Below, in pieces: positions 21,261 through 27,804 of a stretch of 64,000 bases of DNA (positions are counted from its first letter, which is position 1; the number at the start of each line of letters is the position of its first letter). The stretch is from positions 62,001-126,000 of the forward strand of contig NZ_QOCL01000004.1 of NCBI RefSeq assembly GCF_004006665.1, written 5' to 3'. The notes under the pieces were generated by a model. It ran no database searches. It was not told the origin of the DNA and saw nothing but the letters and a program-made list of their open reading frames with translations. The translations under genes and the position numbers were made by a program. This DNA comes from Halobacteriovorax sp. HLS (GTDB lineage: Bacteria > Bdellovibrionota > Bacteriovoracia > Bacteriovoracales > Bacteriovoracaceae).

Positions 21261-22259
21261 ATGAATTCGAAAAAAATTAGTCTTACTGGGATCAAGCCAA
21301 CTGGGATGCCACATCTTGGAAACTACTTAGGCGCGATTAAGCCTGCATTAGAAATGGCCAACTCTGGACAATATGAAGCTTACTACTTTATAGCTGATTA
21401 TCATTCTTTGACTTCTGTTCACAAAGCTCAGGAACTTAACGACTATATTTACGAAGTTGCCGCGTGCTGGCTAGCTTTAGGATTAGATCCTTCAAATGTA
21501 ACTCTATATAAACAAAGTGATATCCCAGAGATCATGGAACTTAATTGGATTCTATCCTGCTTTAGCGCTAAAGGACTTATGAATAGGGCGCATGCTTATA
21601 AGGCCTTGTCGGCTGAAAATGAGTCAAAAGGTAGGGACACTGATCATGGAATTAATATGGGTCTCTATACATACCCAATATTAATGTCTAGTGACATTCT
21701 TTTCTTAAAGTCTGATTTTGTTCCTGTTGGAGCGGATCAGCTTCAGCATATTGAGATCGCAAGAGATTTAGCAAATGCTTTTAACCATGTTTATGGAGAA
21801 GTTTTTACTCTTCCTCAAGCAAAGGTTCAAGAAGGCGAGCTTGTGCCAGGTCTGGATGGACGAAAAATGAGTAAGAGTTACGATAATCATATTCCACTAT
21901 TTCTAACTGAAAAAAAATTAAGAAAGATGATTAACAAAATCACTACAGATTCAAGTGAACCAAGTGAACCTAAAGATCCAGAGAACTCTTTGATTTTCGA
22001 TTTTTATAAACTCTTTGCAACTGAGCAGCAAATTAAAGACTTATCAGACTGGTATAAGAGAGGAATTGGTTGGGGAGAAGCAAAGCTAGAGCTTTTCAAT
22101 GTAATTAATGAAGAGCTTAAAGGTCCACGTGAAAAGTATAATGAATTAATGGCAGACAGGAAATTAATTGATGAAATCTTAGAGCAAGGAGCTGCTAAAG
22201 TTAGACCAAGAGCAAGTGAGTTTTTAAAAGAAGTAAAAAAAGCAATTGGTGTAATTTAA
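21261..22259 (+). CDS. trpS: Tryptophanyl-tRNA synthetase
   Basis: 332 residues, standard length for bacterial TrpRS. The class I signatures are present: GIKPTGMPHLGNYLGAI (HIGH-type, HLGN) near residue 10-26 and KMSKS in DGRKMSKSYDN near 200. It charges tRNA-Trp. GGAAG lies just before the start. It is followed six bases later by an acyltransferase-like gene, which may share its transcript. Confidence 0.96.
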   Translation: MNSKKISLTGIKPTGMPHLGNYLGAIKPALEMANSGQYEAYYFIADYHSLTSVHKAQELNDYIYEVAACWLALGLDPSNVTLYKQSDIPEIMELNWILSCFSAKGLMNRAHAYKALSAENESKGRDTDHGINMGLYTYPILMSSDILFLKSDFVPVGADQLQHIEIARDLANAFNHVYGEVFTLPQAKVQEGELVPGLDGRKMSKSYDNHIPLFLTEKKLRKMINKITTDSSEPSEPKDPENSLIFDFYKLFATEQQIKDLSDWYKRGIGWGEAKLELFNVINEELKGPREKYNELMADRKLIDEILEQGAAKVRPRASEFLKEVKKAIGVI

Positions 22260-22264
22260 ATAAG

Positions 22265-23104
22265 ATGAAGAATATACCATTAAAAAAACTCGAAGATACA
22301 TCTGTCTTCAGAAAAATAGCAATGGGAACTTGGAAGACAGCAAAGGACCCTTCTGTTTACGGAATTCTAGAAATAGATGTTACAGATACCCTGTTAAATT
22401 TAGAAGAGTATAGTAAGCTTCATGATATTAAAATTTCTCCAAGTCATTTAGTTGGAAAGGCCCTCGCATATTGTATGAAGCGACGACCTGAAATCAATGG
22501 AATGATAAGAGGAAGAAGAATCTGGCTAAGAGAGTCTGTAACTTTATTTTATCAGGTAAATATCCCTGGAGATGGAGCGGATAAAGTTTCAAAAGCAACG
22601 CTGTCTGGTTGTACAGTGGAAGACGCACAGGAAAAAACACTCAAGCAAATAGCACAAACTTTAAAAGAAAAAGCAGAACTTGTACGTAAGTTTAAAGATA
22701 AGGATATAGCAAAAAACTTAAATACTTTTAAGTATATTCCTTGGTGGTTTTCTCACATCTATCTAAATATTGCCTCATTCTTATTATATGGATTAAATTT
22801 GAATCTTTCATTTCTTGGCTTGCCACGAGATCCCTTTGGTTCTGTGATGATTACGAATGTTGGCAGTTTCGGAATAGATTTGGCCTTTGCACCTCTTTGT
22901 CCATATACGAGAGTTCCTCTGCTACTTTCGGTAGGAGCTGTTAGTGATAAAGTTTTAGCTGTAAATGGACAGCCTAAAATAAGAAAAGTTCTTCCTATAG
23001 GCGTTACCTTTGATCATAGATTGATTGATGGTGTACACGCATCTCAAATGGCCAAAGACTTTAAAGACTGCTTTGCAAGATCGAAAGAGCTTCTATTTAA
23101 TTAA
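22265..23104 (+). CDS. Stand-alone 2-oxoacid dehydrogenase-type acyltransferase domain
   Basis: 279 residues corresponding to the catalytic core of E2 acyltransferases without lipoyl or peripheral-binding domains. Visible: SVMITNVGSFGIDLAFAPLC (the usual N-G-G-x-F-G segment) and the active-site motif FDHRLIDGVHA near residue 250, the HxxxDG of the family. No E1, E3 or lipoyl protein is encoded nearby, so a free acyl-CoA acyltransferase similar to chloramphenicol acetyltransferase folds is possible. A hydrophobic stretch (FSHIYLNIASFLLYGLNLNL) is unusual for an E2 core. Confidence 0.8.
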   Translation: MKNIPLKKLEDTSVFRKIAMGTWKTAKDPSVYGILEIDVTDTLLNLEEYSKLHDIKISPSHLVGKALAYCMKRRPEINGMIRGRRIWLRESVTLFYQVNIPGDGADKVSKATLSGCTVEDAQEKTLKQIAQTLKEKAELVRKFKDKDIAKNLNTFKYIPWWFSHIYLNIASFLLYGLNLNLSFLGLPRDPFGSVMITNVGSFGIDLAFAPLCPYTRVPLLLSVGAVSDKVLAVNGQPKIRKVLPIGVTFDHRLIDGVHASQMAKDFKDCFARSKELLFN

Positions 23105-23202
23105 TAATATTGTAAGTTGCTGTATTTATGAATTATCGCCACGTCTAAAATATGTAATTTTTTGGACTTATGTTATCATTTATTTAAATATCCTTAAAAG
23201 AG

Positions 23203-24402
23203 ATGATAATGATAGAGAAGTTCTGCATACTACCATTTGTTCAATTAGAAATTCAGCCAAATGGAAATATATTTGTATGTTGTCATTCGAATACTCCTGA
23301 GATCCTAGGAAATCTTCATGAAGAAAACTTAGAAGAAATTTGGAATGGGCCTAAAGTTAAGGCCTTTCAAGATAAATTCTTATCAGGTAAGTATGATCAA
23401 ATTTCACACTGTAAGGATTGCTTCTATTATGAACAACATAATATGGAATCTTGGAGAACCAAAGAGAATAAAAACTGGGCTAAATACTTAGAGGAAATAA
23501 ATAGTGGCAAGGAAGTAAAATTAAAATTTCCTAAAAGCTTATCCATTAGAATATCCAATTTATGCAATTTTTCATGTCGCTCTTGTAAACCTTCTACTAG
23601 TACAGCTTGGTTTGCAGATGCAAAATTTTTAAACCCAAAAGGTAATTATAAAAAGCTAAATTGTACTCCCGCAGATAATCCTCTTTCAAAACAATTGGCG
23701 CCATATTGGTCGGAAATTGAACACTTATATTTTGCTGGAGGAGAACCATTATTAGAGAAAGATCACTATTTAATTATTGATGAGGTGATTAAATATAATA
23801 AATCAATCATGATAAATTATGATACGAATTTTAGTATTTTAGAATTTGGAAAATGGAATGTTTTAGATCAGTGGAATCAGTTAGAGAGTGTTGTTGTGTC
23901 TGGAAGCATTGATGGATTTGGACCTGTGGGTGAGTACATAAGAAAAGGACTTGATTGGCCTCTCTATATAAAGAATTGGAATCGAATAAAGAATGAATGT
24001 CCTAATGTACGTTTAAAATCTAATTTTACTTTATCGATATATAATATGTTTCATGTCTTAGACTTTATTGAGGAAATGCAAAGAATAGAGCTTTTTAATG
24101 GTCTTAATGAGCATGACTTCGAGATATCTCTGGTTGAAGAACCAAGCTGGATGTCACTACAGGCGCTTCCTTTAGAAGTTAAAAAAGAAGTGGAGTTTCG
24201 CTATAAAAATTTTATGAAAAATAATAGCTTTGGAAGAATCAATCAAGATCTTCAAAGTGCGCTGAATTATATGATGGCAGAAGATAAATCTCATCAATTA
24301 GGAGCTCTAAAAGGTTTTACAAAGAAATTAGACTTGCTAAGGTCAGAAGATTTTAATGAGCTATTTCGTGAAGAATCTCAAATATTATTTGGAAGTATAT
24401 GA
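23203..24402 (+). CDS. Radical SAM protein 1 with N-terminal auxiliary cysteine module
   Basis: 399 residues; the in-frame ATG at 23209 has the better spacing to AAGAG and could be the true start. Residues 8-73 carry C8, CC26-27 and CxxC (70-73), the cysteine pattern of a SPASM/twitch auxiliary Fe-S module, here placed before the radical SAM domain. The radical SAM motif is C121-x3-C125-x2-C128 (LCNFSCRSC), followed by FAGGEPLLE (GGE motif). It should bind S-adenosylmethionine and a 4Fe-4S cluster; the substrate is unknown. First of three overlapping paralogues; the next start overlaps its stop by four bases. Confidence 0.88.
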   Translation: MIMIEKFCILPFVQLEIQPNGNIFVCCHSNTPEILGNLHEENLEEIWNGPKVKAFQDKFLSGKYDQISHCKDCFYYEQHNMESWRTKENKNWAKYLEEINSGKEVKLKFPKSLSIRISNLCNFSCRSCKPSTSTAWFADAKFLNPKGNYKKLNCTPADNPLSKQLAPYWSEIEHLYFAGGEPLLEKDHYLIIDEVIKYNKSIMINYDTNFSILEFGKWNVLDQWNQLESVVVSGSIDGFGPVGEYIRKGLDWPLYIKNWNRIKNECPNVRLKSNFTLSIYNMFHVLDFIEEMQRIELFNGLNEHDFEISLVEEPSWMSLQALPLEVKKEVEFRYKNFMKNNSFGRINQDLQSALNYMMAEDKSHQLGALKGFTKKLDLLRSEDFNELFREESQILFGSI

Positions 24403-25628
24403 CAAAGATATGTCCTCTACCCTGGCTGCATTTTAGTTGTAACGCTGATAGTTCATTGCGATTGTGTTGTAATGCAACAGGGGATAGAGATGTCATAGAC
24501 AATAATGGCGATCCAGTTCTTCTCACAAGTAATCTCTCTTGGAAGAAAGTTTCAAATTACAATTTTTACAAGGACATTAGATCTAAGATGTTAAAGGGAG
24601 TCGTCCCTGAGCAGTGTAAGAATTGTTATAAACTTGATAATCATGGCGGTAAGTCTCCATTATCAATTTATGAAAAGCAATTTAAAGAGAGTATGTCTTC
24701 TCTATTAGACAGAACTCTCGAAAGTGGTGAGATTCTTTCTCCAAGTGATACTCCAGAGTATTGTGATTTAACTTATACCAATAGTTGCAATCTAAAGTGT
24801 CGAATGTGTACTCCTGAGTTATCAGCACCACTTCATAAAGAATGGAAGAGTTTGAATATAGATTTTAATGAAGATTTTTATGAAAATGCTAAAAACATAT
24901 GGGACTTGAAATTACTAAAGTCTCTAGACTTTATTGAAAATACTTCTGTGCTTTTTATTCAAGGTGGAGAGCCTCTAATTAATAAAGATATATTTAACTA
25001 CTTACAAGAGTTAATTGAGAAGAATAAGGCCTCTAAGATATACTTAAAGATCACAACTAATTTAACGATATTAAGTAATGATTGGATAAAAGTTCTATGT
25101 CAATTTAAAGGAGTTGCCTTTCATGTTTCTATTGAAGGAACTTCTGAATTAAATAATTATATCCGCTTTCCTTCTAAGCTAAATCAAATTGAAGAAAATA
25201 TTGAAAAATTAATAAAACTGAAAAGAGTATATCCATTTTTTGTAAATATTCATACGGTTTTTCAGTTTATGAATATTCATAATATAGAATCATTTCTAAA
25301 GTACTTACAGAAGTGGAAAGGTCAATTGCCCATTATTCCTACGATGGGATATCTCAATGTGCCAGAATTCTATAATCCAAAGCATTTAGAGGAAGCTAAG
25401 AAAAATATGATCTTATCATCTTTAAGAAACTTTCTTAATGATAATAAAATTCTATATACTCAAGAAAGTGGAGAAGTTACGAAAGAGAACTTTGAAAACC
25501 TATTGGGCTGCATTGAACTTGCAAGTGAGAAGGGATGTCGTGAAATGGAAAAAAAGGCCCTTTACTATATTGAAGAACTTGATAAATTACGAGATCAATC
25601 ATTTGTGAAGGTTTCTAATGGAAGGTAA
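24399..25628 (+). CDS. Radical SAM protein 2 with N-terminal auxiliary cysteine module
   Basis: 409 residues, start ATG inside the previous stop (ATGA). It has the same order as its neighbours: C5, CC23-24, CxxC (73-76), then C130-x3-C134-x2-C137 (SCNLKCRMC) and FIQGGEPLIN. Between the two cysteine regions is an acidic helical segment (KGVVPEQC to FKESM). It is closer to protein 3 than to protein 1 by the shared tails SPLSIYEKQFK / SPRRIFLDHYEKEF and IRFPSKL / LRFPMKW. The function is not recognised beyond the fold; sister enzymes modify peptides, sugars or cofactors. Confidence 0.88.
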   Translation: MTKICPLPWLHFSCNADSSLRLCCNATGDRDVIDNNGDPVLLTSNLSWKKVSNYNFYKDIRSKMLKGVVPEQCKNCYKLDNHGGKSPLSIYEKQFKESMSSLLDRTLESGEILSPSDTPEYCDLTYTNSCNLKCRMCTPELSAPLHKEWKSLNIDFNEDFYENAKNIWDLKLLKSLDFIENTSVLFIQGGEPLINKDIFNYLQELIEKNKASKIYLKITTNLTILSNDWIKVLCQFKGVAFHVSIEGTSELNNYIRFPSKLNQIEENIEKLIKLKRVYPFFVNIHTVFQFMNIHNIESFLKYLQKWKGQLPIIPTMGYLNVPEFYNPKHLEEAKKNMILSSLRNFLNDNKILYTQESGEVTKENFENLLGCIELASEKGCREMEKKALYYIEELDKLRDQSFVKVSNGR

Positions 25629-26853
25629 ATTCTTATGCCCTTTTCCGTGGATGCAAATTAGTACTGAGCCAGAAGGTTCAGTAAGGGCCTGTTGCTATGG
25701 AGACTCTGGGAAAACTCTAGGGCTCGATGTTAATTCGACATTTAAAATAAGTGACGCACAATTATTAGAAAAAAAAATAAATCACCCTGAGCTTGTGAAG
25801 CTAAGGAAATCGATGTTAAGTGGAGAGATTCCAAATTTTTGTAATGGGTGTAAAAGAAGAGAGGATGTTGGGGAGAATTCTCCTAGAAGAATTTTTTTGG
25901 ATCATTATGAAAAGGAGTTTGAGATCCTCCTCGGCAAGACGAATTTGAACAGTGGGGAATTAGCAGTAGACGATATCTCTTTACTTGAATTAACACTAGG
26001 GAATACCTGTAATTTGAAGTGTAGGTCATGTTCTCCATATTTTAGTTCAACTCTTGAAAAAGAGTTTGAGCAGTTGGGGATAGATTTTTCAAAAGAAAAT
26101 GTTCAGGAGATTCAGGCCTTTTGGAAGCAAGGTAAGTTAATCGATTCTCTTATTCTACTTTCTAGAGAAGTTCGTGAGTTAAAGTTTTTAGGTGGAGAAC
26201 CATTAGTTACTCCAATACATAATCAACTTCTCTCTATACTTATTGAAAAGAATCTGTCTTCTAATATGTCTCTAACTTATAATACAAATTTAACCCTTAT
26301 AAGCGATGATATTCTTTCTAAGTGGTCAAAGTTTAAGAGTATTAAGCTTGATATCTCTATTGACGGTGTAGGAGAGCTAAATGAATATCTACGCTTTCCT
26401 ATGAAGTGGGAGAAGTTTGAAAAGAATTTAGAAAAAATTTTCAATGAAAAAGATGATTTAAATATTGAAGTGAGCTTCAATACAGTTTTCCAAGCTTACA
26501 ATATACCTTTTATTATAGATCTTTTGGAATACTTGAAGCCTCTTTCAAAAAAGTGTCCAATTGTTCCGTACTTTATATATCTCGATTATCCTTACTACTT
26601 GAAGGGAGATGTCTTGAAAGTAAGTGTTTTGGAAGAGATAAAACAGAGATTAAGTCTGTATTATTCAAACAATGAAGAATTTTATAAAAATACCTTGTAC
26701 GGAGAAAAGAATCTCTCTAATTTTTCACTTCTTTTTTCACTATTAGACTTATCGATTTTAGAAAATAGAACCGAAAACTATTTTGACTTTATAATGTTTA
26801 CCAAGAAATTGGATAAATTAAGAAAACAAAATTATTTTCGATTCTTAAAGTGA
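25618..26853 (+). CDS. Radical SAM protein 3 with N-terminal auxiliary cysteine module
   Basis: 411 residues, starting 11 bases inside the previous gene. Cysteines: C7, CC25-26, CxxC (75-78), then C131-x3-C135-x2-C138 (TCNLKCRSC) and FLGGEPLVT. The last 50 residues are Leu/Asn-rich helix ending KKLDKLRKQNYF, which parallels KKLDLLRSEDF and EELDKLRDQSF in proteins 1 and 2. The shared C-terminal helix suggests a common partner or dimer interface. The stop abuts the convergent secreted-protein gene with no spacer. Confidence 0.88.
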   Translation: MEGKFLCPFPWMQISTEPEGSVRACCYGDSGKTLGLDVNSTFKISDAQLLEKKINHPELVKLRKSMLSGEIPNFCNGCKRREDVGENSPRRIFLDHYEKEFEILLGKTNLNSGELAVDDISLLELTLGNTCNLKCRSCSPYFSSTLEKEFEQLGIDFSKENVQEIQAFWKQGKLIDSLILLSREVRELKFLGGEPLVTPIHNQLLSILIEKNLSSNMSLTYNTNLTLISDDILSKWSKFKSIKLDISIDGVGELNEYLRFPMKWEKFEKNLEKIFNEKDDLNIEVSFNTVFQAYNIPFIIDLLEYLKPLSKKCPIVPYFIYLDYPYYLKGDVLKVSVLEEIKQRLSLYYSNNEEFYKNTLYGEKNLSNFSLLFSLLDLSILENRTENYFDFIMFTKKLDKLRKQNYFRFLK

Positions 26854-27276
26854 TTACTCACAAGTTTCCGTGTAAAGGTTTAGTTTCTTGTTAATTGATT
26901 TGCAGACTTTTTCCAATATTTCTGTTTTTTCATAATCTTCTAACTCTCTTTTTCCCGATGAGTTACATGGCATATTACGAACTAAGAAAGTTGCATAATT
27001 TATAATTAACCCTGAAGTCGCTATAACTGCCGCACTTATCTTGGTAATCGCTGGCTCAGGCGCCCAAGTACAAAGGGCCGTAACAGTTCCAAGTGTTAAA
27101 GTGCCCGCAGATAGAGCTGTAATTAAAGCATCTTTGGTCTCGCATTTCATGTTACTTTTTAATTGAAATTGCTTAAGTATCAAGGTGTCTTCCATTCCTG
27201 AAAAACAAAAATCTTCGCTAGCGAAACTAAGTTGTGAATAACTAAACAGAATAAAAAGTCCTATAATCATTTTCAT
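26854..27276 (-). CDS. Small secreted or membrane protein with paired cysteines
   Basis: 140 residues from the ATG at 27276, picked because GGGAGAG lies just upstream; the frame is open to 27300. A signal peptide (MKMIIGLFILFSYSQLSFAS) is followed by six cysteines (DFCFS, KCETK, ALCTW, PCNSS, VCKSI, TCE). A hydrophobic middle (LITALSAGTLTLGTVTALC and ISAAVIATSGLIINYATFLV) could be one hairpin of membrane helices. No family recognised. It is convergent with the radical SAM genes, so not co-transcribed with them. Confidence 0.7.
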   Translation of the reverse strand: MKMIIGLFILFSYSQLSFASEDFCFSGMEDTLILKQFQLKSNMKCETKDALITALSAGTLTLGTVTALCTWAPEPAITKISAAVIATSGLIINYATFLVRNMPCNSSGKRELEDYEKTEILEKVCKSINKKLNLYTETCE

Positions 27277-27351
27277 TATCTCTCCCATGTTGATTATCAT
27301 GTAGAGATAAAAGCAAATTATATGCCAAGAATTTGTTTCTTTTTTGGAACA

Positions 27352-27804
27352 CTATTTGTGATAAGGGTGTCCAGTATGAATGGTTTGTGCCCTGTAAAGT
27401 TGCTCGACAATGAGAAGTCTTGCTAATTTGTGTGGATAAGTCATTGGAGATAAGGAGAGCCTTTCTTTAGCAAGTTCTAATACTTTTTGGCCATGTCCAC
27501 TTGCGCCCCCAATAATAAGAACGATTTTCTCTGAACGCGTTTCGATTAATGAATAGAGCCACTTAGAAAAATCGACGCTATTTCTTAATTTACCATTTTC
27601 TGCCATGAGGATAGGGTAGCTCGGTGCTAGATCGTTGAGTTTTTTTAGAACTTCATTGGCCTCAAGTTCTAAGTTTTCACGCATGGACTTCAGCTCATGT
27701 ATTTTAAGCTTTGGTCCAGTAATTCTTTTTAGATATTGTTCTTCAAGAGACTCAAGGTTCTTATCCTTATATTTTCCAATAACGATAAGATGAATATCTT
27801 TCAT
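27352..27804 (-). CDS. rlmH: 23S rRNA pseudouridine-1915 N3-methyltransferase
   Basis: 150 residues, the usual size. SPOUT-family features: MKDIHLIVIGKYKDKNLESL at the start, LIIGGASGHGQKVLELA as the knotted SAM loop, and the conserved end LLIVEQLYRAQTIHTGHPYHK. It methylates the modified base in helix 69 of 23S rRNA. Its start overlaps the rsfS stop by one base; the rsfS-rlmH pair is widely conserved. Confidence 0.95.
   Translation of the reverse strand: MKDIHLIVIGKYKDKNLESLEEQYLKRITGPKLKIHELKSMRENLELEANEVLKKLNDLAPSYPILMAENGKLRNSVDFSKWLYSLIETRSEKIVLIIGGASGHGQKVLELAKERLSLSPMTYPHKLARLLIVEQLYRAQTIHTGHPYHK

Follow-up and report, generated by a model that had tools for sequence, protein, structure and literature searches.

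Among the described radical SAM enzymes, BtrN (PDB 4m7s/4m7t), the 2-deoxy-scyllo-inosamine dehydrogenase of butirosin synthesis, holds one auxiliary cluster by four Cys ligands, and this cluster is probably the electron acceptor in a two-electron oxidation (PMC9012708). The SPASM/twitch peptide maturases anSME, SkfB, CteB and SuiB carry the SPASM/twitch domain at the C terminus, often with an N-terminal RRE domain and a nearby precursor gene; the SkfB twitch folds back towards the barrel, its first strand lying beside strand 1 (PMC6231123). A twitch domain at the N terminus is catalogued by the NCBIfam model NF033640 (N_Twi_rSAM, twitch domain-containing radical SAM protein; curated cut-off, 170 bits), which is of the type 'subfamily' and has no named reaction. 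Our literature search found no paper naming NF033640 or an N-terminal SPASM domain, no characterised member of the family and nothing on co-translated sets of divergent members. Some marine T4-like phages are rich in radical-SAM genes, with several per genome: two reports describe 12 in the genome TARA_ERS488813_N000010 (PMC5332604) and, in pelagimyophages, radical-SAM cassettes lying among sugar-related genes, with glycosyltransferases, in host-recognition clusters (PMC7029224).

Here we analysed a window of 64,000 nucleotides from the marine predatory bacterium Halobacteriovorax sp. HLS, in which three radical SAM genes follow one another on the + strand: P1 (23203..24402, 399 aa), P2 (24399..25628, 409 aa) and P3 (25618..26853, 411 aa). 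The start of P2 overlaps the stop of P1 by 4 bases, ATGA (24399..24402, + strand), and P2 and P3 share 11 bases (25618..25628, + strand). An earlier inspection of this DNA, hereafter the sequence-only reading, had described three overlapping radical SAM genes with overlaps of 4 and 11 bases, and the coordinates were confirmed from the sequence. It had also described, in all three proteins, a C, a CC and a CxxC in residues 5-78 followed by CxxxCxxC near residues 121-138, and this pattern is present throughout: C8, C26C27, C70xxC73 and C121xxxC125xxC128 in P1, C5, C23C24, C73xxC76 and C130/C134/C137 in P2, and C7, C25C26, C75xxC78 and C131/C135/C138 in P3. Between positions 22000 and 27400, promoter-like sites were no more frequent than in shuffled sequences, and no terminator was found.

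In an NCBIfam profile scan, all three proteins exceeded the NF033640 cut-off (P1, 330.5; P2, 277.5; P3, 307.7 bits) and matched nearly the whole model, N-terminal twitch included. Pfam placed PF13186 (SPASM) at residues 8-73 of P1, followed by a weak PF04055 match at 116-271, just under the cut-off; PF04055 was over the cut-off in P2 (55.7 bits) and P3 (35.0 bits). The Cys positions, together with the structure models of P1 and P3, bear out the proposed location of the auxiliary Cys module N-terminal to the radical SAM core. Because all three are clear NF033640 members, however, this 'inverted' order is a catalogued feature and not the novelty it had seemed. As to the concern that a database would assign the proteins to a characterised family with unrelated substrates, a database family exists, but NF033640 carries no substrate. 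P2 and P3 are ~32% identical to each other and group in a single clade that has no viral member in this sample. P1 joins a clade of mainly viral sequences, with support that is modest (0.75). The genome encodes eight N_Twi family members over the cut-off.

The N-terminal residues C8, C26, C70 and C73 (P1 numbering) recur in 290-291 of the 293 viral relatives and in 86/86 bacterial ones, and the CxxxCxxC core motif is kept in every member of both sets (293/293 and 86/86). The second Cys of the CC is found in only 218/293 viral relatives, indicating that the true ligand set of the twitch module is four Cys. In a 13-row family alignment, the only invariant Cys residues outside the core motif were C8, C26, C27, C70 and C73, all in the N-terminal module, and the trio does not have the seven auxiliary Cys of SPASM-domain radical SAM enzymes with two auxiliary clusters. 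P1, P2 and P3 are intact radical SAM enzymes in which the catalytic and the twitch motifs are both complete.

As a unit, the trio is real and conserved but rare. When 368 genomes of the phylum were searched with models built from these very P2 and P3 sequences, orthologues (36-41% identity) were found in only two other genomes, a Bdellovibrio sp. CG22 MAG (G070) and a Bacteriovoracaceae MAG (G100). Search scores were 704-759 bits for these P2 and P3 proteins and at most 352 bits for any other match among the 368, and in a quick tree the P2 clade and the P3 clade each consisted of these three genomes and no others (SH-aLRT 99 and 98). G070 keeps the order P1-P2-P3; there P1, whose start is masked, overlaps P2 by 14 bases, and P2 overlaps P3 by 11, as in the window. 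In G100, P2 and P3 are contiguous with a 4-base overlap, and the P1 orthologue (C114) is on a different contig; a further G100 ORF (L076:12365-13480) was rejected as the P1 orthologue on account of its very long branch. The triplet might have been absent from all relatives, and the ordered, overlapping trio of G070 shows that it is not; the same order with similar-sized overlaps in another genus also accords with the tight co-translation proposed earlier. The genes flanking the trio differ among the three genomes, and no neighbour is constant in the two relatives. P1 orthologues are commoner than those of P2 and P3 and also occur without them.

Several minor observations were made at related loci. 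The closest P1 homologue (54% identity), in genome G036, lies beside a gene for a StrB1/AGAT-type amidinotransferase (L085:17321-18406), and this locus is the same DEAD-box/CBS neighbourhood in which G100 carries P2-P3. We rejected the amidinotransferase as a recurrent P1 partner: it is a genuine StrB1/AGAT relative but occurs at one bacterial locus only, and a look-alike phage cluster (c25) has no Pfam match. An additional N_Twi gene, akin to the P2/P3 clade, is present in both G100 (L121:7814-10067), there as an overlapping pair, and G070 (L122:8444-9649).

The trio lies in a variable stretch (22260..26853) that extends from trpS to the ORF at 26854-27300 and differs between congeners, as an insertion hotspot would. 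In three of four congeners (G002, G003 and G004), there is no insert and trpS directly abuts the 148-aa ORF or rlmH, whereas the fourth (G001, L117:5858-14748) carries at the same site a GT2 gene, a UDP-glucose/GDP-mannose dehydrogenase gene, a PMT-like gene and two Asn-synthase genes. In the genome studied here, the trio and an acyltransferase gene lie between trpS and the rlmH side. The latter (22265..23104, + strand) encodes a 279-aa protein with a 2-oxoacid-dehydrogenase-type acyltransferase domain (PF00198, 82.1 bits), which gave weak local matches only in the four congeners; it is missing beside the trio in both relatives and was discarded as a fixed partner. The GC content of P1-P3 is 0.314-0.324, compared with 0.357 for the acyltransferase gene and an ORF median of 0.355. 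No integrase was found in the variable stretch, and the direct repeats flanking the insertion were only short and chance-like. The low GC content and the patchy site are consistent with horizontal gain of the trio. The ORF at 26854-27300, which is convergent with P3, encodes a 148-aa, Cys-containing, secreted-looking protein; it is kept in three of four congeners that lack the trio and is therefore not the trio's partner.

The AF2 models of P1 and P3 were confident (pLDDT 90.4 and 91.6, respectively; pTM 0.89), and in both a twitch hairpin and helices precede barrel strand 1. The best structural neighbours of the two barrels included anSME, BlsE, SkfB and viperin (Z about 12-13.6), in sequential alignments that cover mainly the barrel and hence are silent on the docking site of the twitch. 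These matches mix peptide- and sugar-acting enzymes, peptide maturases among them, so that the structures do not settle the substrate. The N-terminal module of P1 aligned with the C-terminal twitch of BtrN (4m7t residues 189-257), which was its best match among solved structures (E 2.3e-5 with a profile). The BtrN twitch matches P1 in sequence and in the positions of C8, C26, C70 and C73, a correspondence based on the alignment and the published four-Cys statement rather than on BtrN ligand residue numbers, and the P1 twitch likewise appears to be of the four-Cys type. In BtrN, however, the twitch sits after the barrel, whereas in P1-P3 it comes before it, and the similarity of the cores is low; we suggest only that the trio may work like BtrN, and do not class it as BtrN. 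Given that the SkfB twitch packs on barrel strand 1, an N-terminal fusion could keep the same place on the barrel as a C-terminal one, and the site could stay unchanged despite the permutation.

We favour, at roughly even odds (about 50%), the reading that the trio performs a stepwise oxidative remodelling of one sugar or surface-glycan precursor, the presumed substrate, through BtrN-like two-cluster chemistry. P1, P2 and P3 would be divergent NF033640 members acquired as a co-translated set. In each, SAM would be cleaved at the core cluster and hydrogen abstracted from the substrate; an electron might then pass from the substrate radical to the fully ligated twitch cluster, giving a two-electron oxidation or a related redox step, as in BtrN, and the product could be an oxidised sugar, such as a ketone, or the outcome of a related redox reaction. 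The three enzymes may act one after another on a single sugar, small or glycan-linked, that is produced elsewhere in the cell and probably serves to diversify surface polysaccharides. Joint translation would serve stoichiometry and perhaps direct hand-over, and a physical complex is conceivable.

Besides the BtrN-like twitch of P1 and the glycan genes of G001 at the same site, this sugar reading draws on gene context. An N_Twi pair elsewhere in the same genome (C14) overlaps by 4 bases into a GT2 glycosyltransferase gene, which is followed by an ABC transporter gene. N_Twi genes also stand in runs in several genomes of the Bdellovibrionota, with four in G201 and three overlapping in G102, where the trio is followed on the same strand by one gene of unknown family and then by a GT2 gene. 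The sugar-type neighbours of phage relatives, described below, and the pelagimyophage host-recognition clusters (PMC7029224) point the same way. Counted against the reading are the lack of any glycosyltransferase or sugar gene directly adjoining the trio in the window, the lack of a constant neighbour in its relatives, two abundant phage neighbours without a recognised family, and the peptide maturases among the barrel matches. In G070, a gene that is GT2-like by inspection only is the second one downstream of the trio and has the opposite orientation. Around the N_Twi genes of the phylum, moreover, most genes are unrelated; only other radical-SAM genes recur often (10/132), and GT2 is found in 4/132. 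If the sugar reading is true, predatory bacteria and marine T4-like phages would have in common a radical-based route to surface-glycan diversity.

The barrels also resemble those of anSME, SkfB, CteB, SuiB and EpeE, and SPASM/twitch enzymes are well known in peptide maturation (PMC6231123, PMC9012708); the trio could instead install cross-links, epimerisations or oxidations on a peptide or protein encoded elsewhere, which we consider unlikely. Although the barrel fold is held in common with anSME, SkfB, CteB and SuiB, no C-terminal SPASM/twitch, RRE or nearby precursor was seen in the trio. Pfam and NCBIfam scans of P1-P3 gave no RRE/PqqD match within the three proteins, and the P1 twitch best matches the sugar-acting BtrN. 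As the sequence-only reading had noted, no precursor peptide, transporter or peptidase adjoins the trio in the window; short-ORF searches in the 98-bp gap 5' of P1 (23050-23230 examined) and between P3 and the next gene (26830-27360 examined) gave no convincing precursor in the former and none in the latter, nor do G070 and G100 supply a constant neighbour. A RiPP-type reading is thus not favoured by these sequences, and the neighbours of relatives include radical-SAM and sugar enzymes.

Less probable still is an obligate P1-P2-P3 hetero-oligomer carrying out one joint reaction. The tight overlaps, the similar lengths and the co-occurrence of P1, P2 and P3 in all three genomes with P2 and P3 would suit such an enzyme, and the sequence-only reading had pointed to shared C-terminal helices with a KKLDxLR motif. 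This motif is exact in P1 and P3, but P2 reads EELDKLR. Its D and R are kept in 259/293 and 275/293 viral relatives, respectively; the LDxxR motif runs through the whole family, in which many relatives stand as single genes, and it offers no evidence for a hetero-oligomer. In addition, all three proteins have complete catalytic and twitch motifs and none looks like a dead partner, and the P1 of G100 lies on a different contig from P2-P3.

The trio is a short example of a broader phenomenon, the tandem arrangement of overlapping N_Twi genes in Bdellovibrionota and uncultured T4-like phages. We examined 160 viral loci, the best 80 matches to each of a P1-based and a P3-based query, on contigs that are partly redundant. 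At least two N_Twi ORFs were present in 142 of them, in runs of up to eight, and the subclade order 23-22-16-5-21 recurred in 40-46 of the 160. Neighbours of the same subclade were rarer than in shuffled arrays (18 observed versus 37.7 expected; minimum of 22 in 500 shuffles). Starts were taken from the longest ORF, so that overlap lengths are upper bounds; the distance from stop to first Cys, which is independent of start choice, is 9 and 8 nt in the trio versus a median of 21 in viral pairs. Non-specific accumulation of independent mobile N_Twi genes in hotspots, with the trio as a chance neighbourhood, would fit the patchy distribution, low GC content, hotspot site and existence of P1 orthologues without P2 and P3, but is the least probable alternative given the recurrence of order and overlaps in another genus, despite different flanks, and the fixed order of distinct subfamilies and scarcity of same-subclade neighbours in the phage arrays.

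The T4-type Gp23 capsid gene was found on 11 of 24 array-bearing contigs. The two phage reports mean that the abundance of radical-SAM genes in such phages was partly known (PMC5332604, PMC7029224), but their accessible descriptions contain neither the N-terminal twitch nor a fixed order; the N_Twi arrays on Gp23-bearing contigs were found here, and the P2/P3 clade is confined to bacteria in this sample. Neighbours of the arrays include genes for a carbamoyltransferase, UDP-glucose dehydrogenase, nucleotidyltransferase and aminotransferase, B12-type and SPASM radical-SAM genes, and unknown families. Of the last, c1 (about 370 aa) and c5 (about 353 aa) are abundant and conserved, belong to no recognised family and gave nothing significant in PDB profile searches. 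A bolder and rather doubtful idea is that co-translated N_Twi arrays, of three genes in the window and as many as eight in T4-like phages, where the order of subfamilies is conserved, could be radical-enzyme assembly lines. Their products would be an undescribed class of heavily remodelled sugars or glycans that serve in surface contact between phage and host or between predator and prey. The interest of the trio itself is moderate and that of the arrays of its family higher; as a conserved three-gene set with complete motifs, the trio gives a small and testable way into a large dark group, with relatives in ordered arrays on hundreds of viral contigs.

The tandem arrays lie on viral contigs L136-L295, for example at L269:487-11141. 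Apart from these, Vibrio phages nt-1 (L133:4762-7059) and K575 (L134:4729-7059) each carry a lone, distantly related radical-SAM gene that forms a tight operon together with two ORFs, one conserved and 89 aa long, the other of 327-340 aa; these are candidates for its substrate or partner.
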